NCBI RefSeq assembly: GCF_025231485.1
Contig: NZ_CP104003.1
Span: 3,921,960 to 3,985,959 of the forward strand
Reading direction: 5' to 3'
DNA from: Salinirubellus salinus
GTDB lineage: Archaea > Halobacteriota > Halobacteria > Halobacteriales > Haloarculaceae
Length of the DNA: 64,000 bases
The notes below the pieces were generated by a model. That model made no database searches and was not told the origin of the DNA. It was given only the letters and a program-made list of their open reading frames with translations. Positions 13,878 through 31,827 of the stretch are shown piece after piece (the stretch's first letter is position 1; each line of letters opens with the position of its first letter). The translations under genes and the position numbers were made by a program.

Positions 13878-13892
13878 GTGTGGTAGTACCAC
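13878..13892 (-). promoter_or_regulatory. Start-abutting element, copy 2 (before IclR regulator 2)
   Basis: In coding sense this reads gtggtactaccacac, directly followed by the ATG at 13877. GTGGTA and TACCAC are perfect arms around one base. It shares 12 of 15 bases with the element before 26656. Position between the TATA-like ctaatac (13899-13905) and the start suggests negative autoregulation. Confidence 0.55.
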
Positions 13893-16461: not shown

Positions 16462-17898
16462 ATGAGTGAGTCCGAGCAACCGACGCTCAGCGACGACCGG
16501 CAGGAAGTGCTCGACGCGGCGGACGTGGCGTGGGACGTGGAGACGGACGTCCTGGTCGCCGGCGCCGGGGGGACGGGGCTCGTCGCCGCACTCGCGGCCT
16601 GTGAGAACCCCGACCTCACGGTGACCGTCCTGGAGAAGGCACCCGAACCGGGCGGCAACACCTCGCTCTCCACGGGGATGATCCCGGCAGCGGGGACGCA
16701 CCTCCAGGAGGAGAAGGGCATCGAGGAGACGCCCGCGGACATGGCCCGCGACATCCTCGAGAAGAACCACTACGAGGCGGACGAGGAGCTAGTCCACCAC
16801 CTCGCCCGCGAGAGCGTGAACCTCATCCACTGGCTCGTCGACGACTGGGGGGTCAACCTCCACCTCGTGGACGACTTCAAGTACCCGAAACACTCGGAGT
16901 TCCGGATGCACGCCCCCGTGGGGAACAACGGGGCGAACCTCGTCGCCGAGCTGGTCGAACTCCTGGAGGCGCGCGAGAACGTCGAGTTGCTGACGAACGC
17001 GCCGGTCACCAAGCTCGTCGCCGAGGACGGGGCCGTCGCCGGGGTCGTCGCCGGCGACCGCCGCGAGGAGTACATCGCCGCGGCGAAGGTCATCCTCGCG
17101 ACCGACGGCTTCGGCGGCAACCGACGGATGATCCGTGAGTACTGCGACGAGGAGATCGAGGAGGCGCTCTACTTCGGGTCGGACGGCAACACCGGTGACG
17201 GCATCCGGTTCGGCGCGGATCTCGGCGGCGACCTCGCCTACATGGACTCCTACCAGGGTCACGCGACGGTCGCGCGGGACACGGGGGCGCTCTCGACGTA
17301 CGCCATCGTGATGAACGGCGGCATCCTCGTCAACGAGGACGGCGAGCGGTTCGGCGACGAGTCGGCGGGCTACTCGGAGTTCGCGGTGGACGTGCTCCGG
17401 CAGCCCGGCGGCGTCGCCTACGAGATCTTCGACGAACGCATCTTCGAGAAACTGACCGGGCAGTTCGACGACTTCGACGAGGCCGTCGAACTCGGTGCGT
17501 ACACCGAGGCCGAGACGGTTGCAGAGCTGTGTGCGGTGTTCGACGTCGACGCCGACAGGGCCGAGGCGTCGCTGGAGGCGTACAACGCCGCCGTCGAAGC
17601 CGGCGAGCCGGACGAGGTCGGCCGCGAGGACGGCGTCCACACCCTCTCGCCTCCGTACTACGGGACGCGCGTGACGGGTGCGCTGTTCCACACACAGGGC
17701 GGACTCGTGGTGGACGAGGACGCCCGCGTGCTCCGGGAGGACGGGAGCGCGGTCGAGAACCTCTACGCGGGCGGTGGGGTAGCCAACGGGGTCAGCGGCC
17801 ACGGTGCGGGTGGGTACCTCTCGGGCAACGGGCTCACCGCCGCACTCGGCTTCGGCCGGCTGGCGGGCATCCACGCCCGCGAGTCGCTGACCGAGTGA
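16462..17898 (+). CDS. FAD-dependent dehydrogenase/reductase of the fumarate-reductase flavoprotein type, copy 2
   Basis: The 478-residue protein carries the FAD dinucleotide motif LVAGAGGTGL (residues 31-40) and the C-terminal SGHGAGGYLSGNGLTAALGFG segment. It is a close relative of the protein at 1097-2521, sharing WDVETDV, the GNT-S-LSTGMIPAAGT stretch and the HTQGGLVVD region. It is divergent from amidase/hydantoinase operon 1 and convergent with operon 2, so it sits between two copies of the ring-opening pair. A role in saturating or desaturating the ring or the freed dicarboxylate is plausible. The family also includes 3-ketosteroid dehydrogenases and fumarate or urocanate reductases. 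Confidence 0.85.
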   Translation: MSESEQPTLSDDRQEVLDAADVAWDVETDVLVAGAGGTGLVAALAACENPDLTVTVLEKAPEPGGNTSLSTGMIPAAGTHLQEEKGIEETPADMARDILEKNHYEADEELVHHLARESVNLIHWLVDDWGVNLHLVDDFKYPKHSEFRMHAPVGNNGANLVAELVELLEARENVELLTNAPVTKLVAEDGAVAGVVAGDRREEYIAAAKVILATDGFGGNRRMIREYCDEEIEEALYFGSDGNTGDGIRFGADLGGDLAYMDSYQGHATVARDTGALSTYAIVMNGGILVNEDGERFGDESAGYSEFAVDVLRQPGGVAYEIFDERIFEKLTGQFDDFDEAVELGAYTEAETVAELCAVFDVDADRAEASLEAYNAAVEAGEPDEVGREDGVHTLSPPYYGTRVTGALFHTQGGLVVDEDARVLREDGSAVENLYAGGGVANGVSGHGAGGYLSGNGLTAALGFGRLAGIHARESLTE

Positions 17899-17923: not shown

Positions 17924-19288
17924 TCAGACCGGCCGGTCGACGTGCGTCCCGTACCCCTTCTCGCCCGTGACCTCGCCCTCCTCGAACACCACGCGACCGC
18001 GGACGATGGTGTGGGTCGGCCAGCCGGTGACCGCCATCCCCTCGTAGATGGAGTAGTCCGACCCGGCCTGCAGGAGTTCGGGCGTGACAGTCTTCGTCTC
18101 GTCGAGGTCGACGACCACGAGGTCGGCGTCGCTGCCCACGCGGATGGTCCCCTTCTTCGGGTAGAGGTTCCACGCCTTCGCCGTGTTCGTGCTCGTCACC
18201 GCGACCGCCCGCTCCAGCGAGATACGGCCCTCGTTCACCCCTTCCGAGAGGACGAGCGGGAGCATGGTCTGGGTGCCCGAGAACGCGAGGCCGGTCTCCC
18301 AGAGGTCGTCACCCAGCTTCTCGTCGAGCGTGTTGCAGACGTGGTCGGTGCCGATACACGAGAGCGTGCCGTCGGCGAGCCGTCTCCAGAGGGTCTCGCG
18401 GTCCGTCGCGTCGCGCATCGGTGGCGTCACCTTCATCCGCGCGTCGCAGTCGTCGGCCGTGTAGACGAGGTACTGCGGGCAGGTCTCGCCCCAGAGGTCG
18501 TAGCCGGCCGCCCGGAGCGCGGCGATCTCGTCCGCCGTCCCGGCCGAGGAGATGTGGACCGTGTAGAAGCTCTCGTCGTAGTCGTGGAGCTTCGCGAGCG
18601 ACGCGCCCGCGACCATGCTCTGCGTCTCGGCGTACCCGGGGTAGCGCTCGCGGAAGGCGTGGTAGTCGGCGTCCGGGTCGCCCGGCTCCAGGATGGACCG
18701 CGTGATCTCGACGTTCTCGGCGTGGTAGCCCAGCGTCGTCGGTGCGTCGACCCCCGCGAGCGCCTGGATCATCCCGTCGCCGACGTCGTCGGTCAGGTCG
18801 TTGTCCAGCCCGAACTTCGTCCGGGTCATGTACTTGTAGAGGTAGTACCACTTGAACGTGGTAATCCCGAGGTCCGCGACGATGTCGGGGATCTCGGCGA
18901 CGTGCTCCGGCGAGAGGATGCCCAGCGTGTAGAAGTAGTCGTGGTAGCTGTTGGCCTCGCTCTGCTCGAAGTAGCCGTCCATGATGTCGGTGTACGTTCC
19001 CGGCCGCCGGAAGATGTTCCCGACGGTCGTCACGCCGCCGACGAGGTCGCCGTGCGTCTCCGTCTCGTGGTCCGTCGCGTAATCGCGGTACAGCCCGTAG
19101 TGGACGTGCGGGTCGATGGCGCCGGGGAGGACGTGCTTGCCGGTGGCGTCGACGACCTCGTCGCCGTCGAGCGCCCCCGGACGGGCGATGGCCGAGACGA
19201 CGCCGTCGTCGGCCGCCACGTCCGCGCGGAAGGTGCCGTGTTCGACCGAGACGACCGTCCCGTTGCGGACGACGAGATCGTGGCTCAC
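17924..19288 (-). CDS. Hydantoinase/dihydropyrimidinase-like cyclic amidohydrolase, copy 2
   Basis: The 454-residue protein starts with GTG, whose GTGA overlaps the upstream stop. Metal ligands are intact: His61-x-His63 (DPHVHYG), Lys146 (ITTFKWYYL), the GYHAENVEI and VHISSAG histidines, and the IGTDHV aspartate. It is strongly similar to copy 1, but the middle region that shapes the pocket differs (an insertion after the VEI motif in copy 1 is missing here). The pair may therefore handle related but different rings. Three blocks of 177, 79 and 98 bp are identical in DNA to copy 1. It is second in an operon with amidase copy 2. Confidence 0.9.
   Translation of the reverse strand: MSHDLVVRNGTVVSVEHGTFRADVAADDGVVSAIARPGALDGDEVVDATGKHVLPGAIDPHVHYGLYRDYATDHETETHGDLVGGVTTVGNIFRRPGTYTDIMDGYFEQSEANSYHDYFYTLGILSPEHVAEIPDIVADLGITTFKWYYLYKYMTRTKFGLDNDLTDDVGDGMIQALAGVDAPTTLGYHAENVEITRSILEPGDPDADYHAFRERYPGYAETQSMVAGASLAKLHDYDESFYTVHISSAGTADEIAALRAAGYDLWGETCPQYLVYTADDCDARMKVTPPMRDATDRETLWRRLADGTLSCIGTDHVCNTLDEKLGDDLWETGLAFSGTQTMLPLVLSEGVNEGRISLERAVAVTSTNTAKAWNLYPKKGTIRVGSDADLVVVDLDETKTVTPELLQAGSDYSIYEGMAVTGWPTHTIVRGRVVFEEGEVTGEKGYGTHVDRPV
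18090..18266. repeat. 177-bp segment identical to 14454-14630
   Basis: Partner of the identical block in hydantoinase copy 1. It encodes the conserved region from the PLVLSEG segment to the DLDETKT segment. Confidence 0.85.
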
Positions 19289-19941
19289 GCCGCCGCCTCC
19301 CGGAGGTAGCTGGTCACGTCGTCCGCGTCCCGGACGTGGCCGTACCGCTCGTCGATGTCCAGCAGCGCGACCGCCGTCGAGGCCTGCACCCGGTCGAACA
19401 CGCACTCCCGGGGGACGAGGACGGCGAACCCGAGCTGGGCCGCGTCGAGTGCGGTCGACCGGACGCAGCCGCTCGCCGAGCAGCCGAGGACGACGACGGT
19501 GTCGACGTCCGCACGGACGAGTCGCGCGGTGAGGTCGGTGCCGTAGAACGCACTCGAGTACGATTTGTCGAGCACGAGGTCGTCGTCGCGGACCGCCAGG
19601 CCGTCGGTGAGGCCGATGTCGTCGGGACCGAGTCCGCTCCTCGCCCCGGGGACGACGCGGGTGTAGACGACCGGGATATCGGCGTCGTGAGCGGCCGCCA
19701 GCAGGGGTTCGATGTGTTCGAGCGCCCGATACGCGACCGCCCCCATCGAGGTCCGGTAGCCCTCGACGGACTGCTCGATGGGGACGTCGTCGCCGAACAG
19801 GTGTCGCTGGAGGTCGATCGCCAGCACGACCGGATGCCGGCCTGACTCGCACCGTGGAGTCAGCCCCGGCAACGGCTTCTCGTCGGTCGCGGCGAGCACC
19901 TCGCGGTCGCTCGCCCCGAGTATCGTGTCTCGCTCGGTCAT
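19285..19941 (-). CDS. Isochorismatase-superfamily amidase, copy 2
   Basis: The 218-residue protein keeps the catalytic triad Asp43 (LAIDLQ), Lys126 (VLDKSYSSAFYGTDL) and Cys159 (SASGCVRSTALDA). Its N-terminal part differs more from copies 1 and 3 than the rest, and the region after VVPG is changed, so specificity may differ. It is first in an operon with hydantoinase copy 2 and is preceded by the 15-bp start-abutting element. A TATA-like ttattac lies 34-40 nt before the ATG. Confidence 0.9.
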   Translation of the reverse strand: MTERDTILGASDREVLAATDEKPLPGLTPRCESGRHPVVLAIDLQRHLFGDDVPIEQSVEGYRTSMGAVAYRALEHIEPLLAAAHDADIPVVYTRVVPGARSGLGPDDIGLTDGLAVRDDDLVLDKSYSSAFYGTDLTARLVRADVDTVVVLGCSASGCVRSTALDAAQLGFAVLVPRECVFDRVQASTAVALLDIDERYGHVRDADDVTSYLREAAA

Positions 19942-19994: not shown

Positions 19995-20858
19995 TCAGTG
20001 GTCGGCGGCGGCGATGGCGTCGGCCCGGGCGACGAGCCGGCGGTAGCGCTCGACCAGCGCCTCGTCGAGGAACGTGCCCTCGTGGACGAACGCGCCTCGG
20101 TCGGACGCGTCGTAGGCCTCGACGTGCGTGCGGGCCGTCGCCACCGCCTCCGGGTCGGGCGTGAACACCTCGTTGACGACGGGGACCTGTCGCGGGTGGA
20201 TGACCGACTGGCCGACGAAGCCGACCTCGGCGGCTCGAGCCGCGACCTCGCGCAGTGCGTCGAGGTCGGTCGGGTCCGGGTACACGGACGAGACCGGCTG
20301 GAGCCGGCCGATGGCCGCGAACCCGACGATTCGGTGGCTCAGGAACTCCCGGACGCGAGTGGAGGTCGGCTCGCCGCCGGTCGCCCGCGCGTAGTCGCCG
20401 ACGCCGAACGAGAGCCCGGTCACCCGTGGTAATCCCGCCGCCGCCTCGGCGATCTCGCGTCCGGCGAACACGCCTGCCGGGGATTCGAGCAACAGCACCA
20501 GCTCCGGCGGGTCGTCCGTCAGGTCGTCGAGCGCCGCGACCGTCTCCTCGACCGCTCGCGGCGTCTCGACCATCGGGAGCGTCACCGTGTCGACGCCGGC
20601 GGCGACCGCGGCGTCGAGGTCCGCCGTCCAGTGGTCGGTCCCGAACTCGTTCACCCGCACGGACAGCTCCGTCTCGCCGAAGTCGGCCGTCTCGCGGACC
20701 GCCCGGAGGTTCTCGCGGGCCTGCGGCTTGTCCTCGGGCCGGACCGCGTCCTCGAGGTCGACCGTGACGGCGTCGGCCCCAGCGTCGGCGGCCTTCGCCA
20801 TCATCTCCGGCGAGTCACCGGGCGTGTAGAGGAAACTGCGTCGCAGCCGCTCAACCAA
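19995..20858 (-). CDS. CitE-like C-C lyase (citrate lyase beta/malyl-CoA or citramalyl-CoA lyase family)
   Basis: The 287-residue protein has the HpcH/HpaI/CitE TIM-barrel motifs: SFLYTPGDSPEMM, DLEDAV at 34-39, Arg68, metal-binding Glu125 (LLLESPAGV) and Asp155 (FGVGDYA). Family members cleave citryl-, malyl-, methylmalyl- or citramalyl-CoA. There is no ATG; the likely start is a TTG at 20858, overlapping the end of the CoA-transferase gene by eight bases. With that CoA-transferase upstream, an acid could be loaded with CoA and then split, as in itaconate use through (S)-citramalyl-CoA. The actual acyl-CoA is unknown. Confidence 0.85.
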   Translation of the reverse strand: MVERLRRSFLYTPGDSPEMMAKAADAGADAVTVDLEDAVRPEDKPQARENLRAVRETADFGETELSVRVNEFGTDHWTADLDAAVAAGVDTVTLPMVETPRAVEETVAALDDLTDDPPELVLLLESPAGVFAGREIAEAAAGLPRVTGLSFGVGDYARATGGEPTSTRVREFLSHRIVGFAAIGRLQPVSSVYPDPTDLDALREVAARAAEVGFVGQSVIHPRQVPVVNEVFTPDPEAVATARTHVEAYDASDRGAFVHEGTFLDEALVERYRRLVARADAIAAADH

Positions 20859-22050
20859 GCCGCACCACCCCTCGGGCTTCGAGTTCGTGGACGTCCGCCT
20901 CCGACAGGCCGGCCCGCTCGGTGAGCACGGCCATCGTGTCGGCCCCGAGGTCGCGCCCCGCGTGGTCGATGCGGCCCGGGGTCGCCGAGAGGTGAGGGAC
21001 GACCCCCGGCATCACGAGGTCGGGGTGCTCGTCGTCGTCGACCCGTTCGAGCGCGCCGCGCTCCCAGAAGTAGTCGTCGTCGAAGATGTCGGCGGTGTCG
21101 TAGACGGGACCGATGGCCGCCTCGTGTTCCTCGAACACGCGGAGGATCTCCTCACGGTCGCGCTCGGCCATCCAGTCGGCGATGATGGCGTCGAGTTCGT
21201 CGCCGTGATCGAGTCGCTTCGAGGCCGTGGCGAACCGCGGGTCCTCGGCCAGTTCCTCTCCACCGACCGCGCGCAGGATGCGCTTGGCGACGCTCTCGGC
21301 GCTCCCGGAGATGGCGACCCAGCGGCCGTCCTTCGTCTCGTAGGTGTTCCGGGGCGCGGAGTAGGCACTCCGGTTGCCCGTGCGGGTCTTGACGGTGCCG
21401 TTGACGCTGTAGTCGACGGTGAGTCGCCCCATGATGGAGAACAGCGGCTCGACGAGGCTGGTGTCGACGACCTGTCCCTCGCCGCCGTTCACGTCGCGGT
21501 GGTAGAGCGCGAACGTCGCGGCCCACGTCGAGTAACAGGCGGCGATGGCGTCCGCGAGCCCCAGCGACGGGAGCGTCGGTGGCTTGTCCGGGAACCCCGT
21601 CACCTCGGCGAAGCCGCTCATCGCCTCCGCGAGCGTGCCGAACCCCGGCCGTTCGCGGTAGCGGCCGGTCTGCCCGAAGCCGCTCGTGCGGACGAAGACG
21701 AGTCCGGGGTTCACCTCGCGGAGCGTCTCCCACCCGAGGCCCCATCGCTCCATCGTCCCGGGGCGGAACCCCTCGATGACCACGTCGGCGTCGGCGACGA
21801 GATTCTTGAACGTCTCCGCGCCGTCGGGGTCGCTCAGGTCGAGTCCGACGCTCCGCTTGTTCCGACCCAGCCACTTCCACGAGAGCGCCTGCCCCTCCCG
21901 GCCGAAGTTCCGTATCGAGTCGCCGACCGCGGGGTGTTCGACCTTGATGACCTCCGCGCCGAAGTCGGCCATGAACGTCGCGGCCATCGGTCCGGCGATG
22001 AGCGTCGAGCAGTCTATCACCGTCAGGTCGGACAGCGGCCTGTCTGGCAT
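20851..22050 (-). CDS. Family III CoA-transferase (CaiB/BaiF type), copy 2 of 5
   Basis: The 399-residue protein has DLTVIDCSTLIAGPMAATFM, FGAEVIKVEHP and the probable catalytic Asp167 in LGLADAIAACY. It is most similar in motif detail to copy 4 at 45147 (both have RPGFGTLAEAMSGFA). It overlaps the CitE-like gene downstream, so activation of a dicarboxylate or hydroxy-acid followed by C-C cleavage is the likely pair of steps. A TATA-like cacttatc lies 24-32 nt before the ATG, and a GTGGTACCAC palindrome lies just upstream of that box. The frame continues 17 residues upstream to 22101, but family alignment favours 22050. Confidence 0.9.
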   Translation of the reverse strand: MPDRPLSDLTVIDCSTLIAGPMAATFMADFGAEVIKVEHPAVGDSIRNFGREGQALSWKWLGRNKRSVGLDLSDPDGAETFKNLVADADVVIEGFRPGTMERWGLGWETLREVNPGLVFVRTSGFGQTGRYRERPGFGTLAEAMSGFAEVTGFPDKPPTLPSLGLADAIAACYSTWAATFALYHRDVNGGEGQVVDTSLVEPLFSIMGRLTVDYSVNGTVKTRTGNRSAYSAPRNTYETKDGRWVAISGSAESVAKRILRAVGGEELAEDPRFATASKRLDHGDELDAIIADWMAERDREEILRVFEEHEAAIGPVYDTADIFDDDYFWERGALERVDDDEHPDLVMPGVVPHLSATPGRIDHAGRDLGADTMAVLTERAGLSEADVHELEARGVVRLG

Positions 22051-22152: not shown

Positions 22153-22527
22153 ATGCCAGCTACTCCCACACCACGGGCAGTGGCGGAGGAGTTCTTCGCC
22201 CGCATGGAAGACGAACGGCGCGAGACGGTCGGTGAACTGTTCGCCGACGACGCGGTCATCACGCTCCCCGATGCGAGGTTCGAGGGGCCGGACGCCGCGA
22301 GCGAGTTCCTCGCCCACCTCGCGCCGCGCTACGAGTGGGCCGCGAAGGAGTTCGACCGCTGGCTCGAGACGGAGACGGCGGTCGTGAGCATCGGCACGCT
22401 CTACGGCGTCGACAACGACGGCGAGGCGTTCGAGGGCGTCCGCTACGTCGACGTCTACGAGGTCGAAGACGGGCGCATCCAGCGCGTCGACATCTGGAAC
22501 GACCTCGCTGTCGACGGGGTCGTATGA
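22153..22527 (+). CDS. SnoaL-like/NTF2-fold small protein
   Basis: The 124-residue protein fits the NTF2-like superfamily: an N-terminal helix pair with FFARMEDERRETVGELFADDAVITLPD, a beta-sheet core and a final VDVYEVEDGRIQRVDIWND strand typical of SnoaL-type polyketide cyclase and limonene-epoxide-hydrolase relatives. These are small hydrolases, isomerases or ligand-binding proteins; no catalytic residues can be assigned. Its stop overlaps the ATG of the LLM oxidoreductase (ATGA), so it belongs to a four-gene coupled operon. Confidence 0.75.
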   Translation: MPATPTPRAVAEEFFARMEDERRETVGELFADDAVITLPDARFEGPDAASEFLAHLAPRYEWAAKEFDRWLETETAVVSIGTLYGVDNDGEAFEGVRYVDVYEVEDGRIQRVDIWNDLAVDGVV

Positions 22528-23504
22528 CTCGCACCGGCGTGCTGTTCGCGCTCACCGACGACCTCGACCTCGTCCAGCGGGCAGAGGAACTTGGCTACGA
22601 GAGCGTCTGGGCCGCGGAGGGGCAGGGCAAGACCGCGTTCGGGAAACTGGAGCGGTGGGCGACCGTCACGGAGGACGTCGGGCTCGCGACCGGCATCGTC
22701 AACGTGTTCTCCCGTACGCCCGCCGCGCTCGCGCAGGCGACGGCGACGCTCGACGCGCACTCGGACGGCCGGGCGATCCTGGGGCTGGGCGTGGCGCACC
22801 CGGGCGTCGTCGAGGGCTTCCACGGCGCGGCGTTCGACCGCCCGCTCCGTCGCCTCCACGAGTACGTCGAACTGGTCCGGCGCTACCTCCGCGGCGACGC
22901 GTCCTCGTTCGAGGGTGAGTTCTTCACGCCGGCGCGGACGAGTTTCTGGGAGGCGTTCGAGCCGGTGCGTGCGGACGTTCCCATCTACAACGCAGCGCTC
23001 GGGCCGGGCAACGTCCGGCTGACGGGACAGGTCGCCGACGGCTGGCTCCCGAACCTGTTCCCGATGGACGGGTTCGAGACGGCGCTCGGGTGGCTCGAGA
23101 CCGGGGCCGAACGGGCCGGTCGGTCGGTCGACGACGTGGACGTCGCGATGTACGTCCTCACGGTGCCGGACGAGGACCCCGACGCGGCCCGACGACGGGC
23201 CGCCGAGCACATCGCGTACTACATCCGGGACATCCCCGGCTACTACGACCGCCCGGCCGAGGAGGCGGGTTTCGCCGACGAGGTCGCCGCCGTCAAGGAC
23301 GCCGACTCGACGCCCGAGGGCGCCGCGAGCATCAGCGACGCGTTCGTCGACACGCTGGCCGTCGCCGGGACCCCCGACGCGTGCCGGGCACGTATCGACG
23401 AGCTGCGCGAGGCGGGCGTCGACCTCCCTATCGTCCGCGCCCCGACGGGCGCGAGCCCCGAACTCGAACGGCGGGTCCTGGAGACGTTCGGACCCGAACG
23501 ATGA
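22524..23504 (+). CDS. LLM-class flavin/F420-dependent oxidoreductase, copy 1
   Basis: The 326-residue protein is a luciferase-like monooxygenase family member. Features include GYESVWAAEGQGKTAFGKLE near the N-terminus, LGLGVAHPGVVEGFHG, a YNAALGPGNVRLTG strand and a C-terminal AGTPDACRARIDELREAGVDLP segment like methylene-tetrahydromethanopterin reductase and F420-dependent enzymes. Haloarchaea have F420, so either FMN or F420 is possible. It is coupled on both sides by ATGA overlaps. It is a close paralogue of the product at 30838, with 42 identical bases around the GQGKTAFGKLE motif (22623-22664). A monooxygenase or hydride-transfer step on the pathway compound is likely. Confidence 0.87.
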   Translation: MTRTGVLFALTDDLDLVQRAEELGYESVWAAEGQGKTAFGKLERWATVTEDVGLATGIVNVFSRTPAALAQATATLDAHSDGRAILGLGVAHPGVVEGFHGAAFDRPLRRLHEYVELVRRYLRGDASSFEGEFFTPARTSFWEAFEPVRADVPIYNAALGPGNVRLTGQVADGWLPNLFPMDGFETALGWLETGAERAGRSVDDVDVAMYVLTVPDEDPDAARRRAAEHIAYYIRDIPGYYDRPAEEAGFADEVAAVKDADSTPEGAASISDAFVDTLAVAGTPDACRARIDELREAGVDLPIVRAPTGASPELERRVLETFGPER

Positions 23505-24868
23505 CCCTCCGCTGTCTCTCGCTGAACGGGCTGATGCACGGCAACGGCTTCCCGACCGAATCGCTGGTGCGTGGACTGGCGCACGACCCCGCCTTCGTCG
23601 GCGTCGACGCCGGCTCGACCGACGGCGGCCCGCACTTCCTCGGCTCCGGCGAGAACATGCACTCCTCGCGTCGCGCGGTGAAGGGGGTCTACCGGGTCCT
23701 CCTGACCCACTGCCTCGCCGCCGACGTCCCGCTGCTCGTCGGGTCGGCCGCGACGGCCGGTGCGGACACGCACGTCGAGTGGACCGTCGACCTCGTGGCG
23801 GAACTCGCCCGAGAGGAGGGGCTGGACTTCGACCTGGGCGTCGTCTGGAGCGAGCAGTCGACCGACGCCGTCCGCGACGCCATCGACGCCGGCCGCGTGA
23901 CGCCGCTCGACGAGTCGCCCGAACTGGACGCCGCGACCGTCGAGTCCAGCGAACGCGTGGTGGCGATGGCCGGCCCGGAGGTGTTCGTCGAGGCGCTCGA
24001 CCGCGGCGCGGACGTGGTCGTCGCCGGCCGGTGTTCGGACGTGGCCATCTACAAGGCCGTGCCGCTGCGCGAGGGCTACCACGAGGGGCTGGCGACCCAT
24101 CTCGCGAAGACCATCGAGTGCGGCGCGCTCATCGCCGAACCGCGGGGCGGCGACTGCATCCTCGGGACACTCACGGACGAGTCGTTCACCGTGACCCCGA
24201 CCAACCCCGAGAAGCGGACGGACCCGCTCACGGTCGCCTCGCACCTGTTGTACGAGACGGCCGACCCGACCCGGTTCGTCGAGCCGCGGGGCGTCCTCGA
24301 CACCAGTGCGGCGAGCTACGACGCCGTCGACGACCGCACCGTCCGCGTCTCGGGCTCGCGGTTCACCCGTGCCGAGAACTACACCGTGAAACTGGAGGGG
24401 GCGCGATGGGTCGGCCACCGGGGCGTCGCGGCCGCGGGAATCCGGGACCCGACCGCCATCCGGCAGCTCGACGACCTGCTCGCCACGGCGCGAACGAAGA
24501 CCGAACGGAAGGCCGAGCGGCTGGATGTCGACGCGTTCTCGCTCGACGTCCGCGTCTACGGGCGGGACGGCGTGATGGGCGAGCGAGAACCGACGCCCGA
24601 CCCCGGCCACGAGGTCGGGCTGTTCGTCGAGGCGGTCGGACCGGACGCCGAGACGGTCGACGACCTGCTGGAGGAGTTCACGTACACGCTGTTCGTGAGT
24701 GACTTCCCGGGGCGACAGACCACGGCCGGGAACGCCGCGTTCCCGACCTCGCCGGCACACGCGCCCGTGAGCCCGGCCTACGAGTTCTCCATCTGGCACC
24801 GGCTCGAGGTCGACGACCCGCTCGACCCGTTCCGCGTCGAGGTCCGGCCCGTGGAGGGGAGCGGATGA
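23501..24868 (+). CDS. AtuA-like (DUF1446) acyclic-terpene-utilization family protein
   Basis: The 455-residue protein begins MTLRCLSLNGLMHGNGFP and carries the VGVDAGSTDGGPHFLGSG signature, typical of the AtuA/DUF1446 family. AtuA is required for citronellol and geraniol breakdown in Pseudomonas, but its chemistry is not established. The next gene encodes the DUF4387 partner that follows AtuA in many genomes, so the two probably act as one enzyme or complex. Overlaps of four bases on both sides put it in one translation unit with the LLM oxidoreductase. I do not assign a reaction. Confidence 0.85.
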   Translation: MTLRCLSLNGLMHGNGFPTESLVRGLAHDPAFVGVDAGSTDGGPHFLGSGENMHSSRRAVKGVYRVLLTHCLAADVPLLVGSAATAGADTHVEWTVDLVAELAREEGLDFDLGVVWSEQSTDAVRDAIDAGRVTPLDESPELDAATVESSERVVAMAGPEVFVEALDRGADVVVAGRCSDVAIYKAVPLREGYHEGLATHLAKTIECGALIAEPRGGDCILGTLTDESFTVTPTNPEKRTDPLTVASHLLYETADPTRFVEPRGVLDTSAASYDAVDDRTVRVSGSRFTRAENYTVKLEGARWVGHRGVAAAGIRDPTAIRQLDDLLATARTKTERKAERLDVDAFSLDVRVYGRDGVMGEREPTPDPGHEVGLFVEAVGPDAETVDDLLEEFTYTLFVSDFPGRQTTAGNAAFPTSPAHAPVSPAYEFSIWHRLEVDDPLDPFRVEVRPVEGSG

Positions 24869-25188
24869 GACTCGGCGACCTCGCCGACGTGGTCCGCAGC
24901 AAGAACGCCGGCGTCCACTACGTCACCGTCGACGTCCTGTTCCACGACTACGCGACGTTCGAGGCCGTCCGCGACGCGGAGGTGCTCTCGGCGGCGACCG
25001 TCGCCGACCGCTACGGGCTCCCGGTAGAGGACGTGCGCTTCTTCGTCTACGAGCCGGGACTGGCGTTCAAGGCGACGTTCCCCCGCGAGCACGTCGCGGG
25101 GGGCCCGGGCGACCCCGACCTCTACGGCGCGCAGCAGCACGCGCCCTTGCTGGCCGTCGAGGTGCCCGTCGACACGGCCGACCCGTAG
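24865..25188 (+). CDS. DUF4387 (AtuA-associated small domain) protein
   Basis: The 107-residue protein has the MRLGDLADVVRSKNAGVHYVTVDVLF opening and QHAPLLAVEVP ending of DUF4387. This domain is found fused to or beside AtuA-type proteins. Its ATG overlaps the AtuA-like stop (ATGA). It is the last gene of the SnoaL-LLM-AtuA-DUF4387 operon. No catalytic residues can be named, although the R-S-K-N-A-G segment is highly conserved in the family. Confidence 0.85.
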   Translation: MRLGDLADVVRSKNAGVHYVTVDVLFHDYATFEAVRDAEVLSAATVADRYGLPVEDVRFFVYEPGLAFKATFPREHVAGGPGDPDLYGAQQHAPLLAVEVPVDTADP

Positions 25189-25218: not shown

Positions 25219-26613
25219 ATGCCAACGAGTACCGTAGACCTCGTCGTGCGCAACGCACGGGTCGTCACGCCCTCCGGCACTATCCACGGCGGGGTCGCCT
25301 GTGACGACGGCGTCGTCGTAGCCGTGGGTGCCGACGCGACCCTCCCCGAGGGCGACACCGACGTCGACGCCGGGGGGAACTTCTGTCTCCCGGGGCTCGT
25401 CGACCCACACGTCCACCTCGGCCGGCGGGACCTGGGCTATCCCGAACAGCTCGAGATCGACTTCGAGACCGAGACCCGCGGTGCCATCCACGGCGGCGTC
25501 ACGACCCTGTTCAACTTCGTCGAGCAGGAGGGTCACTACGTTCCCGACCTCGACCACTACCGCGAACTGGGTGAGGCGAACTCGTACACGGACTTCGGCT
25601 TCCACATGGTGATGAGCCACGCCCACCACATCGACGAGGTCCGTGACCTCGCGGCGGCGGGCGTCACCTCGTTCAAGATGTTCTACAACATGTACAAGTA
25701 CACGGATATCGACATCGAGCCGTGCGAGGCCGACCGCGTCTCTCGCGTGCTCTCGCAGGTGTCTGACATCCCGGGTGCCGTCGGCATGTTCCACGCGGAG
25801 AACGCGGAGTTACAGCGGGAGTGTGAGCGCGACGCGAAGGCGTCCGGCAGCCACGACCTGCGGGCGTGGGCCGACGCCTCGCCACCGGCGGCCGAGGCGA
25901 TGCAGATCGACCAGATCGGCCACCTCACCCGGTTCACGGACGCCGACGCCTACGTCGTCCACATCTCCAGCGCGGAGGGCGTCGAGGCGACCGAGCGCTG
26001 GCAGGAGAAGGGCGTCCGCGTGAGCGGTGAGACGCTCGTCACGTTCCTCGCGAACACCGTCGAGGACGACCTCGGCGTCTGGGGGAAGGTGTCGCCCCCG
26101 CTGCGCGAACCCCACCACCAGGAGGCGCTCTGGGCCGCCATCCGCCGTGGTGTCGTCGACCACGTCGGCACCGACCACATCGCCACCAGCGTCGAGGAAC
26201 ACGAGATGGGCGAGGGCCAGCACGGGCCGCACCTCTGGGACGCCCCGCCGGGTATCCAGCCCGGGCTGGAGTTCCTCCTCCCGATGATGCTCACCGAGGG
26301 CTACAACCAGAACCGCATCTCGATGGAGCGGCTAGTCGAGGTGTGTTCCACCAACAACGCGAAGCGGTTCGGCATCTACCCGCAGAAGGGCGCCATCGCG
26401 GTGGGGTCCGACGCCGACCTCGTCGTCGTCGACACCGAGGCCACCGCCACCGTCGACGACGACTTCTTCCACACCCGCGAGCCGCGGTGGTCGTCGGTCC
26501 ACGGCCGCGAGGTACAGGGGCTCGCGACACACACGGTCGTCGGCGGCGAACTCGCCGTCAGGGAGGGCGAACTGCTCGTCGAGAAGGGTGGCGGTTCGTT
26601 CCTCGCCCGCTGA
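25219..26613 (+). CDS. Hydantoinase/dihydropyrimidinase-like cyclic amidohydrolase, copy 3
   Basis: The 464-residue protein keeps His64-x-His66 (DPHVHLG), the lysine ligand Lys153 (VTSFKMFYNMYKY), the VHISSAEG histidine and VGTDHI aspartate. It is more distant from copies 1 and 2 than they are from each other; it has no DNA-identical blocks and the order of partner genes is reversed (amidohydrolase first, amidase second). A TTTT-type AT-rich spot at 25190-25197, about 22-29 nt before the ATG, suggests its own promoter. It may act on a different ring, or in the same pathway under different control. Confidence 0.9.
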   Translation: MPTSTVDLVVRNARVVTPSGTIHGGVACDDGVVVAVGADATLPEGDTDVDAGGNFCLPGLVDPHVHLGRRDLGYPEQLEIDFETETRGAIHGGVTTLFNFVEQEGHYVPDLDHYRELGEANSYTDFGFHMVMSHAHHIDEVRDLAAAGVTSFKMFYNMYKYTDIDIEPCEADRVSRVLSQVSDIPGAVGMFHAENAELQRECERDAKASGSHDLRAWADASPPAAEAMQIDQIGHLTRFTDADAYVVHISSAEGVEATERWQEKGVRVSGETLVTFLANTVEDDLGVWGKVSPPLREPHHQEALWAAIRRGVVDHVGTDHIATSVEEHEMGEGQHGPHLWDAPPGIQPGLEFLLPMMLTEGYNQNRISMERLVEVCSTNNAKRFGIYPQKGAIAVGSDADLVVVDTEATATVDDDFFHTREPRWSSVHGREVQGLATHTVVGGELAVREGELLVEKGGGSFLAR

Positions 26614-26655: not shown

Positions 26656-27315
26656 ATGCCCGAACGACCGTGGGACAGCCTGCTGTCCGACCGGGACCGC
26701 GAGGTCATCGAAGCGGCCGGCTACGACGAGGCGGGGGCGTCGAACTGGGACACTCGCGGCGTCGGCGACCGCCCGATGCTGCTGGTCGTCGACGTCCAGC
26801 GTGTCACCGTCGGCGCGGACGTCCCCATCACCGAGGCCGTCGAGGAGTCGCGTATCGCCATGGGCGAGGTCGCCCACCGGGCGCTCGAACACCTCGTCCC
26901 GTTCGTCGAGTTCGTCCGCGAGCAGGGGATTCCAGTCGCTCACACCCGGGTCGTCCCCCCGGCGTACGACCCCGACGACCCCGAGGTACAGATCGTCGAC
27001 GCACTCGCCCCGCTGGACGACGAACCCGTCGTCGACAAGCGGTACGCGAGTGCGTTCTTCGGGACGGACCTCGTCTCGCGCCTCGTGCGCGCCGACGTCG
27101 ACACGCTCGTCGTCGTCGGGGACACCACGAGCGGCTGTCTGCGCGCCACGGTCGTCGACGCCCAGCAGTTCGGGTTCAAGGTGGTCGTCCCCGAGGAGTG
27201 CGTGTTCGACCGCGTCGACCTCTCGCACCGGGCGAGCCTGCTCGACATGTGGATGAAGTACGCCGACGTCCGGCCGACGAGCGAGGTCCGCGAGCTGCTC
27301 GCGGGGGAGTCGTGA
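26656..27315 (+). CDS. Isochorismatase-superfamily amidase, copy 3
   Basis: The 219-residue protein is very like copy 1. It shares the N-terminal EAAGYDEAGASNWDTRG region, Asp46 (LVVDVQ), Lys128 (VVDKRYASAFFGTDL), Cys161 (TTSGCLRATVVDA) and the C-terminal LLDMWMKYADV segment. A carbamoyl- or maleamate-type amidase is the family reading. It follows hydantoinase copy 3 on the same strand by 42 bp and precedes the aconitase-type hydratase genes. Its start is fixed by the abutting 15-bp element. Confidence 0.9.
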   Translation: MPERPWDSLLSDRDREVIEAAGYDEAGASNWDTRGVGDRPMLLVVDVQRVTVGADVPITEAVEESRIAMGEVAHRALEHLVPFVEFVREQGIPVAHTRVVPPAYDPDDPEVQIVDALAPLDDEPVVDKRYASAFFGTDLVSRLVRADVDTLVVVGDTTSGCLRATVVDAQQFGFKVVVPEECVFDRVDLSHRASLLDMWMKYADVRPTSEVRELLAGES

Positions 27316-27364: not shown

Positions 27365-28621
27365 ATGGCTGCTGGTACCATGGCCCAGCAGATACTGGCG
27401 TCGCACACGGACGCAACGTCGGTATCACCGGGCGAACACGTCACCGTCGAGCCCGACTGGGTGCTCGCACACGACCTCTCGACCTACCCCGTCAAGGGGC
27501 GGATGGCACAGCTCGGGTACGACCGGGTCGCCCACCCCGAGAACGTCGTCATCGTCTTCGACCACCACGTCCCCTCCGCGAGCGAGGTCATCTCCGACCA
27601 CATGAACGAGGTGGAGGCGTGGGTCCGCGAGCAGGGCATCGAGCACTTCCACCCCGCCGGGTCGGGCATCTGTCACAACGTGCTGGTCGAGGAGGGGTAC
27701 TCGGTCCCCGGTGCGCTCATGCTCGGCGCGGACTCCCACACGACGAGCCACGGCGCCTACGGGGCGTACGCCACGGGCATCGGCCACACCGACTGCGCCG
27801 AGGTGCTCGGCTCGGGTGAACTCTGGTTGCGCGTCCCCGAGACCAAGAAGCTCGTCGTCGAGAACACCCTGCCCGAGGGGACCACCGCGAAGGACCTCGG
27901 CCTCGCCATCATGGGCCGGCTGACGGCGAAGGGGGCCATCTACGACGCGATCGAGTACCACGGCGAGGGCGTCGAGGCGCTGGCGATGTACGAGCGTCGC
28001 ACGCTCTCGAACCTCGCGGTCGAACTCGGTGCGGTGACGGGGATGGTCCCCCCGGACGACACCACCGAGGCGTACCTCGAGGGTCGGGCCCTGCTCGACT
28101 ACGAGCCGGTCGTCCCCCGCGAGGACGCCGAGTACGCCGCCGAGGTCCACCTCGACGCGAGCGAGGTCGTGCCGCTGCTGGCGACGCCGTCGCAGGTCGA
28201 CAACATCAGCACCGTCGAGTCGAACGCCGGCGTCCACGTCGACCAGGTGTTCGTCGGCAGCTGCAACAACAGCTCCTACGAGGACCTCGCGGCGTTCGCC
28301 GGCCTCCTGGCCGGCGAGCAGGTCGCCCCCGGTACCGACCTCGTCGTCGTCCCCGGGAGCAAGCAGGCACTCCTCCGGCTGAACGAGGAGGGGCTGTCCA
28401 ACGACATTGTCGAGGCGGGCGGCATCATCTCGCCGCCCGGCTGTGGTCCCTGTTTCGGCGCCCACGGCGGCATCCTCGGCGAGGGCGACGTCTGCCTCGG
28501 GACGATGAACCGGAACTTCCCCGGCCGGATGGGGCCCGGAGAGATCTACCTCGGGAGCCCGGAGACGGCCGCCGCGACGGCCATCTACGGCGAGATCACC
28601 GACCCCCGAGAGGTACGATGA
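27365..28621 (+). CDS. Aconitase-superfamily hydratase, large subunit (LeuC/DmdA-like), set 1
   Basis: The 418-residue protein has the [4Fe-4S] cysteines in VGSCNNSSYED and PPGCGPCFGAHGG, and the DHHVPSAS and GADSHTTSHGAYGAYATGIGHTD motifs of isopropylmalate dehydratase-type large subunits. The ATG of the small-subunit gene overlaps its stop. No leucine-biosynthesis genes are nearby. The lyase at 29129 suggests a dimethylmaleate- or methylmaleate-type hydratase, as DmdAB is paired with dimethylmalate lyase in nicotinate fermentation. That substrate assignment is inference; homoaconitase or citramalate dehydratase are alternatives. Confidence 0.88.
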   Translation: MAAGTMAQQILASHTDATSVSPGEHVTVEPDWVLAHDLSTYPVKGRMAQLGYDRVAHPENVVIVFDHHVPSASEVISDHMNEVEAWVREQGIEHFHPAGSGICHNVLVEEGYSVPGALMLGADSHTTSHGAYGAYATGIGHTDCAEVLGSGELWLRVPETKKLVVENTLPEGTTAKDLGLAIMGRLTAKGAIYDAIEYHGEGVEALAMYERRTLSNLAVELGAVTGMVPPDDTTEAYLEGRALLDYEPVVPREDAEYAAEVHLDASEVVPLLATPSQVDNISTVESNAGVHVDQVFVGSCNNSSYEDLAAFAGLLAGEQVAPGTDLVVVPGSKQALLRLNEEGLSNDIVEAGGIISPPGCGPCFGAHGGILGEGDVCLGTMNRNFPGRMGPGEIYLGSPETAAATAIYGEITDPREVR

Positions 28622-29121
28622 TGGAGCGAACGGGCCGCGTCCACGTCCTCCCGGCCGACGTGGACACCGACCAGATCATCCCCGGCGAGTACCTGACGAC
28701 CGTCCCCGACGAGGAACTCGGAGAGTACGCCCTGCGCGGCTACGACCCCGAGTTCGCCGAGCGCGTCGAACCGGGCGACGTCATCGTCGCAGGTGGCAAC
28801 TTCGGGCTCGGCTCCTCGCGGGAGTCCGCGGCCGTGGCGCTGAAGAACGCCGGTATCGGGGCCGTCGTCGCCGAGTCGTTCGCCCGCATCTTCTACCGCA
28901 ACGCCGTCAACGTCGGCCTCCCCATCGCCACGGTCCCCGGCATCACCGACCACGTCTCGGCGGGCGACACGCTCCGCGTCGACGTCGCCGAGGGCGAGGT
29001 CGAGAACGTCACGACCGGCGAGACGTTCACGTTCAGTCCCCTCCCTCCCGACCTGCTCGAGATCCTCGACGCGGGCGGACTGGTCGCGCTCCGACAGCGC
29101 CAGAACCGGTCGGACTCGTGA
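28618..29121 (+). CDS. Aconitase-superfamily hydratase, small subunit (LeuD/DmdB-like), set 1
   Basis: The 167-residue swivel domain has DVDTDQIIPGEYL and NFGLGSSRESAAVAL, typical of LeuD-like small subunits, where the SSRE region binds substrate carboxylates. It is coupled to the large subunit by an ATGA overlap. It converges on the lyase gene at 29129, seven bases away. Together they should form a heterodimer that adds or removes water from a hydroxy-dicarboxylate. Confidence 0.88.
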   Translation: MMERTGRVHVLPADVDTDQIIPGEYLTTVPDEELGEYALRGYDPEFAERVEPGDVIVAGGNFGLGSSRESAAVALKNAGIGAVVAESFARIFYRNAVNVGLPIATVPGITDHVSAGDTLRVDVAEGEVENVTTGETFTFSPLPPDLLEILDAGGLVALRQRQNRSDS

Positions 29122-29128
29122 CTCGCCC

Positions 29129-30019
29129 TCAGTCCAGTTTCGCGTACCGCTCCGCGTACGCGTCCTCGCGCTCGTCGGCCGCTCGTTCGAAGGCGGTCCA
29201 CTCGTGGAGCAGCGTGATGTCGTCACGCTCGCCCCACTCGACCATCTCGTCCAACACCGACGCCTGACTCCCCTCCGAGATCACGGTCTCGTAGACGTGC
29301 CGGATGGTGTGGAGCGCGGCCTTGAACGCGTCCGACGGGTAGATGGCCACGTCGTAGCCCGCCCCGGTGAGTTCCTCGCGGGACAGCGGCGGCGTCTTCC
29401 CCTTCGCCGCCATGTTCGCGAGGTGTGGCCCCTCGACCGCGGTGGTGACCTCGCGCATCGTCTCGACGTCGGTCGGGGCCTCCACGAACAGCACGTCCGC
29501 GCCCGCCTCCCGGTAGAGTCGAGCGCGGCGGATGGCCTCCTCGACGCCGTGGACCGCGAGGGCGTCGGTGCGGGCGACGACGAGGAACTCGTCGCTCTCC
29601 CGCGCCTCGGTGGCGGCCTCGACCTTCGCGGCGAACTCCGGGGCCTCGACCACGCGTTTCCCCTCGAAGTGCCCGCACTTCTTGGGGAAGTCCTGGTCCT
29701 CCAGCTGGATGGCCGAGACGCCCGCTCGCTCGTACTCCCGTACCGTGCGCCGGACGTTCAGGGCGTTGCCGTAGCCGGTGTCGCCGTCCGCCACCAGCGG
29801 CACGTCGATGGCCCCGGCCATCTGTCGGGCGCGTCGCGCCATCTCGGTCATCGTCGTCAGCCCGATGTCGGGCCCTCCGTGTGTCGAGGAGGAGACACAC
29901 GAACCGGACATGTAGACGGCCTCCGCCCCGGCCTGCTCGGCCATCCGCGCGGTGAGCGCGTCCCAGGCGCCGTGTACCATCAGTAGCTCGTCGTCCGCGA
30001 TGCGGTCTGCGAGTCGCAT
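29129..30019 (-). CDS. Isocitrate lyase/PEP-mutase superfamily C-C lyase (methylisocitrate or dimethylmalate lyase type)
   Basis: The 296-residue TIM-barrel protein has MSGSCVSSSTHGGPDIG, VADGDTGYGNALNVRRTV and QLEDQDFPKKCGH; the KKCGH motif (Cys115) marks true lyases of this superfamily. Relatives include methylisocitrate lyase (PrpB), 2,3-dimethylmalate lyase and oxaloacetate decarboxylase. It converges with the aconitase-type operon. Hydration of an alkylmaleate followed by cleavage to pyruvate plus propionate (or succinate) fits both. A TATA-like ctttgtac is 22-31 nt before the ATG. Confidence 0.88.
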   Translation of the reverse strand: MRLADRIADDELLMVHGAWDALTARMAEQAGAEAVYMSGSCVSSSTHGGPDIGLTTMTEMARRARQMAGAIDVPLVADGDTGYGNALNVRRTVREYERAGVSAIQLEDQDFPKKCGHFEGKRVVEAPEFAAKVEAATEARESDEFLVVARTDALAVHGVEEAIRRARLYREAGADVLFVEAPTDVETMREVTTAVEGPHLANMAAKGKTPPLSREELTGAGYDVAIYPSDAFKAALHTIRHVYETVISEGSQASVLDEMVEWGERDDITLLHEWTAFERAADEREDAYAERYAKLD

Positions 30020-30076: not shown

Positions 30077-30841
30077 CTATCCGGTCGTGTGGATGCCGCC
30101 GTCGACCACCAGCGAGTGGCCGGTGACGTACGCCGACCGGTCGCTGGCGAGGTAGACGGCCGCCTCGGCGACGTCCTCGGGCTGTCCGAACCGTCTGAGC
30201 GGGATGCGTTCCTCGAAGGCGTCGCCCCGCGCGGTGCCGATGACCTTCGAGTCCGACCGCGTCATCTCGGACTCGACGACGCCGGGGTGGATGGCGTTCA
30301 CCCTGACGGCCGGACCGAGCGCGTCGGCCATCGCGTACGTCATCAGCCGGACCGCGCCCTTCGACGCGCAGTACGCGACGTAGTCGCCGACGCCGTACAG
30401 GCCGGCGGTACTGGAGAGGTTGATGACACTCCCCTCGTCCATGCGTCTGGCCGCGGCCTGTGCGCCGAAGAACGCCCCCTTCGCGTTCACGTCCATCGCC
30501 CGGTCGAACTCCGCCTCGGTCGTCTCGAGGAAGTCGGCGAGGACGAACACGCCGGCGTTGTTGACCATCACGTCGACGCCGCCAAACTCGTCGGCCGTGC
30601 CGACGGCGGTATCGAGCGCCTCGGGGTCGGTGACGTCGCACTCGACGAACGCCGCGGCCGCGTCGGTCTCGTCGGCGAGCCGTTCGTCCGTCGGCGAGCC
30701 ACCCTCGCGGGGGGCGCGCTGGCGGTCGGCGACGACCACCGCGCTCGCACCTTCGCGGGCGAACGCGAGACAGATATCCCGGCCGATGCCGCTCGCCCCG
30801 CCGGTGACGACCGCGACCCTGCCGTCGAGGTCGCCCGTCAT
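30077..30841 (-). CDS. Short-chain dehydrogenase/reductase, copy 1
   Basis: The 254-residue protein is a classical SDR: VTGGASGIG cofactor motif, NNAG at the fourth strand, and active-site Tyr-x3-Lys in YCASK, ending with the YVTGHSLVVDGG segment. It oxidises or reduces a hydroxyl/keto group with NAD(P). Its ATG overlaps the stop of the LLM oxidoreductase gene, so the two form an operon. It could interconvert a hydroxy-acid or alcohol formed by that enzyme. Confidence 0.9.
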   Translation of the reverse strand: MTGDLDGRVAVVTGGASGIGRDICLAFAREGASAVVVADRQRAPREGGSPTDERLADETDAAAAFVECDVTDPEALDTAVGTADEFGGVDVMVNNAGVFVLADFLETTEAEFDRAMDVNAKGAFFGAQAAARRMDEGSVINLSSTAGLYGVGDYVAYCASKGAVRLMTYAMADALGPAVRVNAIHPGVVESEMTRSDSKVIGTARGDAFEERIPLRRFGQPEDVAEAAVYLASDRSAYVTGHSLVVDGGIHTTG

Positions 30842-31827
30842 GACCCCTCCGGCGCGAGCGCGGCCATCGTGTCCCGCAGGCCGTCCTCGTCGGCGCTCAT
30901 CGGGGCGCGGACGATGGGGAGGTCGAGTCCCGCGTCCCGGAGCTCGTCGAGCTGGGCCCGGACGTCGTCGGGGGTCCCCACGACGCCGACGCTCTCGACG
31001 AATCCCTCGGAGAGCTCGTCCACGGCGTCGGCGTCGGTGTCGGCGGCCTGTGCGGCGTCCACCTCGTCGTCGTAGCCCGCCTCGCGGGCGATGCCCTCGT
31101 AGTAGCCGGGGATGTGCCGGAGGTACTGGACGACGTGGTGGGCCGCGGCACGATAGGCCGCGTCGGCGTCCTCGTCGACCGACGTGAGCAGGTACATCGC
31201 CACGTCCACGTCGTCGACCGACCGGCCGGCCCGCTCGGCACCCTCGCGGAGCCACCCCATCGCCTCGCGGAAGCGGTCGACGGGGTAGAGGTACGGGAGC
31301 CAGCCATCGGCGTACTCGCCCGTCAGGCGGACGTTGCCCGGGCCGAGCGCGGCGTTGTAGATGGGGACCGTCGAGCGGACCGGCTCGAACGCCTCCCAGA
31401 ACCTCGTCCGCTCGGGCGAGAAGAACTCGCCCTCGAACGGTTCGTCCACGCCGGCTAGGTACCGGCGGACGAGCCCGATGTACTCGGCCATCCGGGGGAG
31501 GGGTCGCTCGAACGGGACGCCGTGGAAGCCCTCGACGACACCCGGGTGCGCCACGCCGAGCCCGAGGCTGGCCCGGCCGTCGGAGTGCGCATCGAGCGTC
31601 GCCGTCGCCTGCGCGAGCACGGCGGGCGTCCGGGAGTAGACGTTCACGATGGACGCACCGAGGCCGATCTCGTCGGTGGCGGTCGCCCACCGCTCCAGTT
31701 TCCCGAACGCGGTCTTGCCCTGTCCTTCGCCGGTCCAGATGCTCTCGTAGCCGAGCCGCTCTGCCTCACGGACGACTCCGAGGTCGTCCAGCAGCCCGAT
31801 AGAGAGCGCGGTGCGTTCACTGGTCAC
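30838..31827 (-). CDS. LLM-class flavin/F420-dependent oxidoreductase, copy 2
   Basis: The 329-residue protein parallels the one at 22524 throughout (GYESIWTGEGQGKTAFGKLE, LGLGVAHPGVVEGFHG, YNAALGPGNVRLTG). It starts with GTG; 31827 is chosen, with another in-frame GTG at 31836 as the alternative. Bases 31681-31722 are identical to part of copy 1. A GTGTGA half-site occurs just before the start, but without its matching arm. Its operon partner is a short-chain dehydrogenase. Two LLM paralogues with different partners suggest two related oxidations. Confidence 0.85.
   Translation of the reverse strand: MTSERTALSIGLLDDLGVVREAERLGYESIWTGEGQGKTAFGKLERWATATDEIGLGASIVNVYSRTPAVLAQATATLDAHSDGRASLGLGVAHPGVVEGFHGVPFERPLPRMAEYIGLVRRYLAGVDEPFEGEFFSPERTRFWEAFEPVRSTVPIYNAALGPGNVRLTGEYADGWLPYLYPVDRFREAMGWLREGAERAGRSVDDVDVAMYLLTSVDEDADAAYRAAAHHVVQYLRHIPGYYEGIAREAGYDDEVDAAQAADTDADAVDELSEGFVESVGVVGTPDDVRAQLDELRDAGLDLPIVRAPMSADEDGLRDTMAALAPEGS

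Follow-up and report, generated by a model that had tools for sequence, protein, structure and literature searches.

The window, a 64,000-nucleotide stretch of the genome of the haloarchaeon Salinirubellus salinus (contig NZ_CP104003.1, positions 3,921,960 to 3,985,959, numbered here from its first letter), contains a conserved operon of four genes on the forward strand, the last two of which belong to the AtuA and DUF4387 families. The reading favoured here, to which a probability of roughly 0.6 is assigned, is that AtuA and DUF4387 form a C–C lyase of the citramalate lyase type that acts late in a cluster for cyclic-amide catabolism, on a substrate that may differ from citramalate. A solved relative of both of these ‘unknown’ genes is already known, and the novelty lies in the form that the pair takes in haloarchaea and in its cyclic-amide setting. 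The operon begins with a gene for a SnoaL-like protein of the NTF2 fold (22153-22527, 124 amino acids; PF12680, 48.5 bits), which is followed by an F420/Mer-like LLM-class oxidoreductase (LLM1; 22524-23504, 326 amino acids; PF00296, 222 bits), AtuA (23501-24868, 455 amino acids; PF07287, 81 bits against a Pfam cut-off of 22.8) and DUF4387 (24865-25188, 107 amino acids; PF14330, 103.4 bits against a cut-off of 27). The gene and family calls of an earlier preliminary description of this DNA were borne out, as was its claim of an operon, with a four-base ATGA overlap at all three junctions. The same order is found in two other genera of the family (genomes G067 and G055), including the SnoaL gene, and the junctions there read ATGA three times in G067 and ATGA, ATGA and GTGA in G055. 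In G067 (Halorarius litoreus) AtuA is split by a frameshift (locus L086, 18629-19998), for which true decay and sequence error are both possible.

The identity of the putative lyase follows from two entries of the Protein Data Bank (PDB), 9erq and 9evf, in which an AtuA-family chain is named ‘Citramalate lyase, subunit A (cmlA)’ and a DUF4387 chain ‘subunit B (cmlB)’; 9evf, released 2025-10-08, is titled ‘Citramalate lyase - ADP - pyruvate complex’. The preliminary description had regarded the chemistry of AtuA and DUF4387 as unresolved in any organism, a view that these entries have overtaken. A sequence search of the PDB returned 9erq/9evf as the one clear relative of each protein, with window AtuA aligned to 9erq_A over residues 4-447 (phmmer E 1.4e-95) and window DUF4387 to 9erq_B over residues 3-100 (phmmer E 1.7e-18). 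When an AlphaFold2 model of window AtuA (pLDDT 92.7) was compared with known structures using Foldseek, 9evf_A was the sole match at E<=0.001 (E 6.8e-57, TM 0.92), and the VIA Z score for this pair was 48.6 over 447 residues, the next row having a Z of 9.6. As both chains occur together in 9erq/9evf, the window proteins probably form one complex as well. Elsewhere, two Thn proteins of anaerobic naphthalene degradation are called ‘AtuA-like lyase’ in an excerpt of a review (PMC12016498).

The context of the gene pair in bacteria was surveyed by scanning contigs with haloarchaeal DUF4387, and the best 80 of at least 480 relatives were kept, so that the counts describe the closest relatives of haloarchaeal DUF4387 and not the whole family. 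After removal of L006, which is the same record as G067, 79 loci, bacterial going by their record titles, were counted, some of them truncated at contig ends; genes were taken as homology-supported open reading frames (ORFs) with the longest start, called without a trained gene finder, and one or a few representatives of a gene cluster served to name its family. AtuA is present in 78 of the 79 loci (all but L062), mostly directly before DUF4387, with the order reversed in L050 and L057. In six loci (L021, L061, L066, L080, L083 and L085) methylaspartate ammonia-lyase directly precedes AtuA, and five of these six also carry glutamate mutase subunit E, which places at these loci the glutamate-to-citramalate pathway, whose end is the cleavage of citramalate to acetate and pyruvate (excerpt of PMC8473912). 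In favour of a lyase, the PDB chain shares one clade of the AtuA tree with all six of these loci.

These six loci can also be read in another way, namely that AtuA-DUF4387 is a hydro-lyase of the mesaconase kind, or some other non-cleaving enzyme, whose PDB name was drawn from context and not from an assay. The product of methylaspartate ammonia-lyase is the compound hydrated next in the pathway, according to the same excerpt of PMC8473912, which also cites a work by Blair & Barker (1966) whose title concerns the ‘citramalate hydro-lyase components’ of C. tetanomorphum. Such an enzyme is nonetheless very improbable, as 9evf is presented in its title as a lyase in complex with ADP and pyruvate, the latter a citramalate cleavage product. 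An aconitase-type Fe-S cluster expects three cysteines. Only one cysteine, C207, is invariant in 79 AtuA sequences, and AtuA as an aconitase-type Fe-S hydratase (mesaconase) was rejected on this count and on the PDB title.

Several further features of the bacterial loci were observed. In L080 a protein of about 300 amino acids is encoded directly after DUF4387 (10314-11252), as it is in L061, L066, L083 and L085, the contig of L021 ending at this point; the L080 and L066 copies have a Walker-A-like motif, and the L080 protein gave no Pfam or NCBIfam match and a best PDB E of 0.57. Two AtuA-DUF4387 pairs are found in L013 (176-1862 and 8561-10249), the second DUF4387 being overlapped by four bases by a HyuB-type gene (taken as the longest ORF). 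A gene for a ZnuA-like metal-binding protein (below cut-off) is next upstream of AtuA in the gammaproteobacterial loci L042, L053, L054, L072 and L073.

The association of AtuA-DUF4387 with LLM oxidoreductases extends to bacteria. An LLM cluster of the NtaA/DmoA type is present in 28 of the 79 loci (representative from L033: TIGR03860, 485.7 bits against a cut-off of 279.7), and in 27 of them the gene precedes AtuA in the same orientation and at no more than 2.5 kb: immediately in 13 loci, separated by a TctC gene in 12 and by another gene in two. Since these LLM genes make up 29 of the 724 homology-supported genes, this position is hardly due to chance. Flavin reductase was found in 14 loci, every one an LLM locus. 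For LLM1 of the window, the best NCBIfam models are F420-dependent and all of the best 25 of 29 score below cut-off (TIGR04024: 219.9 bits, cut-off 345.4), with neither TIGR03860 nor a RutA-like pyrimidine oxygenase among those 25, whilst its PDB matches at E<=1e-15 are six distinct sequences, all Mer. Its close paralogue LLM2, encoded on the reverse strand of the same conserved block (30838-31827), reaches 25 bits with TIGR03860 (cut-off 279.7) and 23.7 bits with the RutA-like model (cut-off 498.3). With an F420/Mer-like enzyme in the window and NtaA/DmoA-type enzymes in bacteria, LLM recruitment beside AtuA appears to have drawn on two different subfamilies. SnoaL was matched in a single bacterial locus, L050 (phmmer E<=1e-3), and a profile built from four sequences, that of L050 included, added no further bacterial locus; G452 has a weak SnoaL match (46 bits) about 11 kb from DUF4387. 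The preliminary description had seen in the coupling a new functional context for the two families, and had proposed a gene-neighbourhood survey. The genes are indeed coupled, with an LLM gene beside AtuA-DUF4387, but the LLM link is recurrent rather than unique; in the survey the bacterial LLM, judged by one representative, proved to be of the other subfamily, and SnoaL was matched in only that one locus.

Amongst haloarchaea DUF4387 is rare: it was found in 3 of 146 genomes searched of the window genome's own family and in 3 of 391 genomes sampled of its class, the window genome being counted in both, which gives five distinct genomes. With window AtuA as query, 14 of the 391 class genomes gave matches at E<=0.001, and strong ones came from just three of them: the window genome, G351 and G367. 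G067 and G055 are the only other genomes of the family found with DUF4387, and in them the operon is part of a much longer conserved arrangement. Colinearity between the window genome and G067 extends over a block of 26 kb that begins with an IclR-type regulator gene (13.1 kb) and ends with LivM (39.3 kb), and in G055 the block could be followed as far as LivH, where the stretch fetched ends. Orthologues are 71-94% identical where identity was computed (SnoaL, ISO_A and ISO_B were matched in a second comparison that gave no identity figure), and the G055 block contains extra genes, two of them related to window genes at 52-55 kb.

It could be argued that the four genes stand together by chance, or owing to one recent event, and have no joint function. 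G351 and G367 have AtuA-DUF4387 and no SnoaL or LLM match within the 35 kb fetched around each (for LLM, phmmer E<=1e-8 and blastp E<=1e-10), and four-base overlaps are common in the block, with at least four other junctions showing them (ISO_A/HYD_A, ISO_B/HYD_B, LeuC/LeuD and LivG/LivF). The overlaps are thus not special to the four genes and indicate coupling, not a self-contained four-gene system. Set against chance adjacency are the order and overlaps shared by the window genome, G067 and G055, the colinearity of the surrounding block in these genomes and the 27 of 79 bacterial loci in which an LLM gene precedes AtuA, and chance adjacency is considered very improbable. The preliminary description had named as the sign of such chance a lack of the LLM and SnoaL genes in most relatives, and this is seen by half: G351 and G367 gave no match to either gene and SnoaL is matched in 1 of 79 bacterial loci, but G067 and G055 keep the order.

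A different pairing of AtuA was observed in two other haloarchaeal loci (L130, 149-1800; L131, 1468-3187), where an AtuA-like protein of about 450 amino acids is accompanied by a separate AtuA_ferredoxin protein (PF23544), the two genes overlapping by four bases in L130. Of 194 genomes sampled in the class, 2 had a PF23544 match. DUF4387 was considered as a detached form of this domain, which in classic AtuA is the C-terminal, ferredoxin-like part, and a profile comparison with two haloarchaeal PF23544 proteins gave a probability of 3% (E 0.014).

The genes around the operon provide the basis for placing the lyase in a pathway. Upstream, and at the edge of the syntenic block, is the IclR-type regulator gene (13092-13892, reverse strand), followed on the reverse strand by a pair of genes (14288-16356) for a hydantoinase-like protein, HYD_A (14288-15688), and an isochorismatase-family protein, ISO_A (15685-16356; PF00857). 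A FAD_binding_2 flavoprotein resembling flavocytochrome c and tricarballylate dehydrogenase (TcuA-like, below cut-offs) is encoded on the forward strand (16462-17898), and a second pair, HYD_B (17924-19288) and ISO_B (19285-19941), on the reverse strand (17924-19941). Between this pair and the operon, also on the reverse strand, are a CitE/HpcH-type lyase (19995-20858; RipC_Ccl, ‘itaconate degradation C-C-lyase’, is its top NCBIfam model at 143.7 bits, cut-off 375) and a CaiB-type CoA-transferase (20851-22050, start inferred; PF02515, 388 bits), which is divergent from SnoaL. Directly downstream of the operon, on the forward strand, are HYD_C, a hydantoinase/dihydropyrimidinase-like cyclic amidohydrolase (25219-26613; L-hydantoinase 1gkr, E 7.9e-63), the isochorismatase-family amidase ISO_C (26656-27315; PF00857; N-carbamoylsarcosine amidohydrolase 26st, E 4.6e-24), a LeuC-type hydro-lyase large subunit identified by family scans (27365-28621) and a LeuD/DmdB-type small subunit (28618-29121; TIGR02087, 190.7 bits against a cut-off of 108.95). 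There follow, on the reverse strand, a lyase of the PEP-mutase/isocitrate-lyase (ICL) superfamily with a KKCGH motif (29129-30019; PF13714, with matches to petal death protein, methylisocitrate lyase and dimethylmalate lyase), an SDR oxidoreductase (30077-30841, start inferred) and LLM2. The block closes with the ABC-transporter ATPases LivG and LivF (31939-33437, forward; ORFs with orthologues in G067 and G055, named from sequence with no family scan), an MmgE/PrpD-family dehydratase (33438-34772, reverse; PF03972/PF19305) and the branched-chain-type transporter parts LivK, LivH and LivM (35901-39269, forward).

According to excerpts of PMC9863593, hydantoinases are grouped with imidases as cyclic amidohydrolases, and the metal ligand set of these enzymes is given there too. 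The corresponding binuclear-metal ligand motifs (four His, one Asp and one Lys) align between HYD_C and 1gkr and amongst HYD_A, HYD_B and HYD_C. In alignments, the ISO proteins show the motifs around Lys and Cys that go with the triad of the amidase family. The best 25 NCBIfam models for HYD_C are all below cut-off and, as the models listed for HYD_B, CaiB, CitE and the flavoprotein are too, none of these proteins can be named more exactly. Elsewhere in the window, a second LeuC/LeuD-type pair is found at 46774-49133, in the company (to 55177) of further CaiB CoA-transferases, of acyl-CoA dehydrogenases and of a CoA-ligase that has an ATP-grasp domain.

Taken as one pathway, these genes suggest the following course, inferred as to its substrate and the sequence of its steps. 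A cyclic amide of the imide, hydantoin or lactam type would be imported by the Liv-type transporter, its ring opened by the hydantoinase-like enzymes and its nitrogen released by the isochorismatase-family amidases. LeuCD, perhaps also MmgE/PrpD, would then hydrate an unsaturated dicarboxylate, and the resulting hydroxy acids would be cleaved by AtuA-DUF4387, by the PEP-mutase/ICL-type lyase and by CaiB-CitE. AtuA-DUF4387 is predicted to be CoA-independent and to act on a dicarboxylate with a 2-hydroxy and probably a 2-alkyl group, giving a short carboxylate and a 2-oxo acid, the latter being pyruvate if the substrate is citramalate. The F420-type LLM and SnoaL may act upstream, on the ring or on a side chain.

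Cyclic-amide hydrolases of unrelated kinds were also found within 10 kb of AtuA-DUF4387 in 8 of the 79 bacterial loci. HyuA-type genes are present in five (L013, L027, L034, L040 and L064), four of which also have a HyuB-type gene, and PuuE-like proteins (85-117 bits against a cut-off of 424.6) occur in the loci of G452, G453 and L050. In G452 (L057) the genes are Liv genes, SDR, DUF4387-AtuA, LeuC, LeuD, a flavoprotein, a PEP-mutase-type lyase, MmgE and a PuuE-allantoinase-like hydrolase. Over about 27 kb, G453 (L063) has AtuA-DUF4387, a flavoprotein, a PuuE-like hydrolase, a PEP-mutase-type lyase, aconitase, an isochorismatase-family protein (with a second, weak match to that family), a hydantoinase and MmgE. 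L050 combines DUF4387 and a contig-cut AtuA with a PEP-mutase-type lyase, a PuuE-like hydrolase and the SnoaL match.

A number of results weigh against the favoured pathway. None of the three kinds of cyclic-amide hydrolase was seen among the flank genes called in 71 of the 79 bacterial loci, and the link of these hydrolases to bacterial AtuA-DUF4387, expressed as raw counts, is suggestive only; the whole haloarchaeal kit occurs in no bacterial locus examined. The proposed pathway has no defined step for LLM and SnoaL. Literature searches for DUF4387, citramalate lyase, CmlA and AtuA gave, among the papers listed, none describing 9erq/9evf, and none of the terms citramalate lyase, AtuA and DUF4387 occurred in PMC12290011 when it was searched for them, so the activity of the solved enzyme rests on its depositors' naming. 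In an AtuA tree of 80 rows, the 9erq chain groups with L021 and L061 in a clade of 15 rows (100/95) that holds all six methylaspartate-linked rows, whereas window AtuA and its G055 orthologue lie outside this clade, on a long branch in a group with LLM-linked rows, their exact place being unsure because of midpoint rooting and the flagged letter make-up of both rows. Of the 89 positions that are near-invariant (>=90%) in the 75 other rows, window AtuA keeps 68 and departs at 21, including 63, 84-85, 399 and 419-420; the 9erq chain agrees with the bacterial consensus at 66 of the positions kept and at 19 of those changed. Tree and residue counts omit L050, L062, L065 and L081 (AtuA missing or shorter than 381 amino acids) as well as two single copies, the frameshifted one of G067 and the second one of L013. 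Position outside the 9erq clade and the changed residues together make a substrate other than citramalate plausible for haloarchaeal AtuA.

The same data bear on another account, in which the enzyme is citramalate lyase proper, fed by hydration of citraconate or mesaconate by LeuCD, and the hydantoinase and isochorismatase genes serve a separate nitrogen scavenging that happens to share the island. This would fit the homology to CmlAB, the position of LeuC/LeuD downstream, after HYD_C and ISO_C, and the best NCBIfam models of CaiB and CitE, which include dicarboxylate CoA-transferases and an itaconate-pathway lyase (below cut-off). A strict citramalate lyase sits poorly, however, with the tree and the 21 changed positions, and separate scavenging with three HYD-ISO pairs interspersed in one syntenic block and with cyclic-amide hydrolases in some of the bacterial kits too; the account is judged unlikely. 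A citramalate-lyase-type enzyme in cyclic-amide catabolism would turn the annotations ‘acyclic terpene utilisation’ and ‘DUF4387’ into a testable prediction, that of a two-subunit hydroxy-acid lyase, and would place it in a compact cluster of archaeal genes for which cyclic amides and branched dicarboxylates form a concrete class of substrates. The occurrence of two LLM types and three unrelated kinds of cyclic-amide hydrolase beside the lyase across lineages hints at a role beyond glutamate fermentation. A bolder and rather doubtful proposal is that a few haloarchaea, and in related form some proteobacteria, possess an undescribed pathway that degrades alkylated cyclic imides or related amides through a non-citramalate, CoA-free AtuA-DUF4387 lyase, with LLM recruited once by archaea and independently by bacteria for preparing its substrate, for which the alkylmaleimides that arise when tetrapyrroles are broken down are, speculatively, a natural candidate.

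Compared with known systems, the window genes resemble CmlA-CmlB (9erq/9evf), to which both chains are homologous over nearly their full length, with the same fold in subunit A. They differ from it in the 37-38% identity of AtuA, in its place outside the 9erq clade with 21 of 89 near-invariant residues changed and in that no methylaspartate ammonia-lyase is among the annotated window genes. The proteobacterial LLM-[TctC]-AtuA-DUF4387 loci (e.g. L033 and L043) likewise have LLM just upstream of AtuA-DUF4387, but theirs is of the FMN-type NtaA/DmoA kind, not F420/Mer-like, and is accompanied by no SnoaL match. G452 and G453 resemble the window in combining AtuA-DUF4387 with a matching flavoprotein, a PEP-mutase-type lyase, aconitase or LeuCD, MmgE and a cyclic-amide hydrolase. 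They are unlike it in that their hydrolase is PuuE-like and no F420 LLM was matched there; in addition, G452 has DUF4387 before AtuA and its hydantoinase matches on other contigs, and G453 has DctP/DctM transporter genes. In cyclic-imide catabolism, ring opening is followed by an amidase step and by use of the dicarboxylate. The polysaccharide-deacetylase family includes a cyclic imide hydrolase, for which the literature searches gave no source. Going by the title of a 1997 work by Ogawa, listed among the references of PMC9863593, cyclic-imide catabolism reportedly proceeds via a dihydropyrimidinase-like imidase, and the pathway proposed for the window would share with it a ring opening of the dihydropyrimidinase type.

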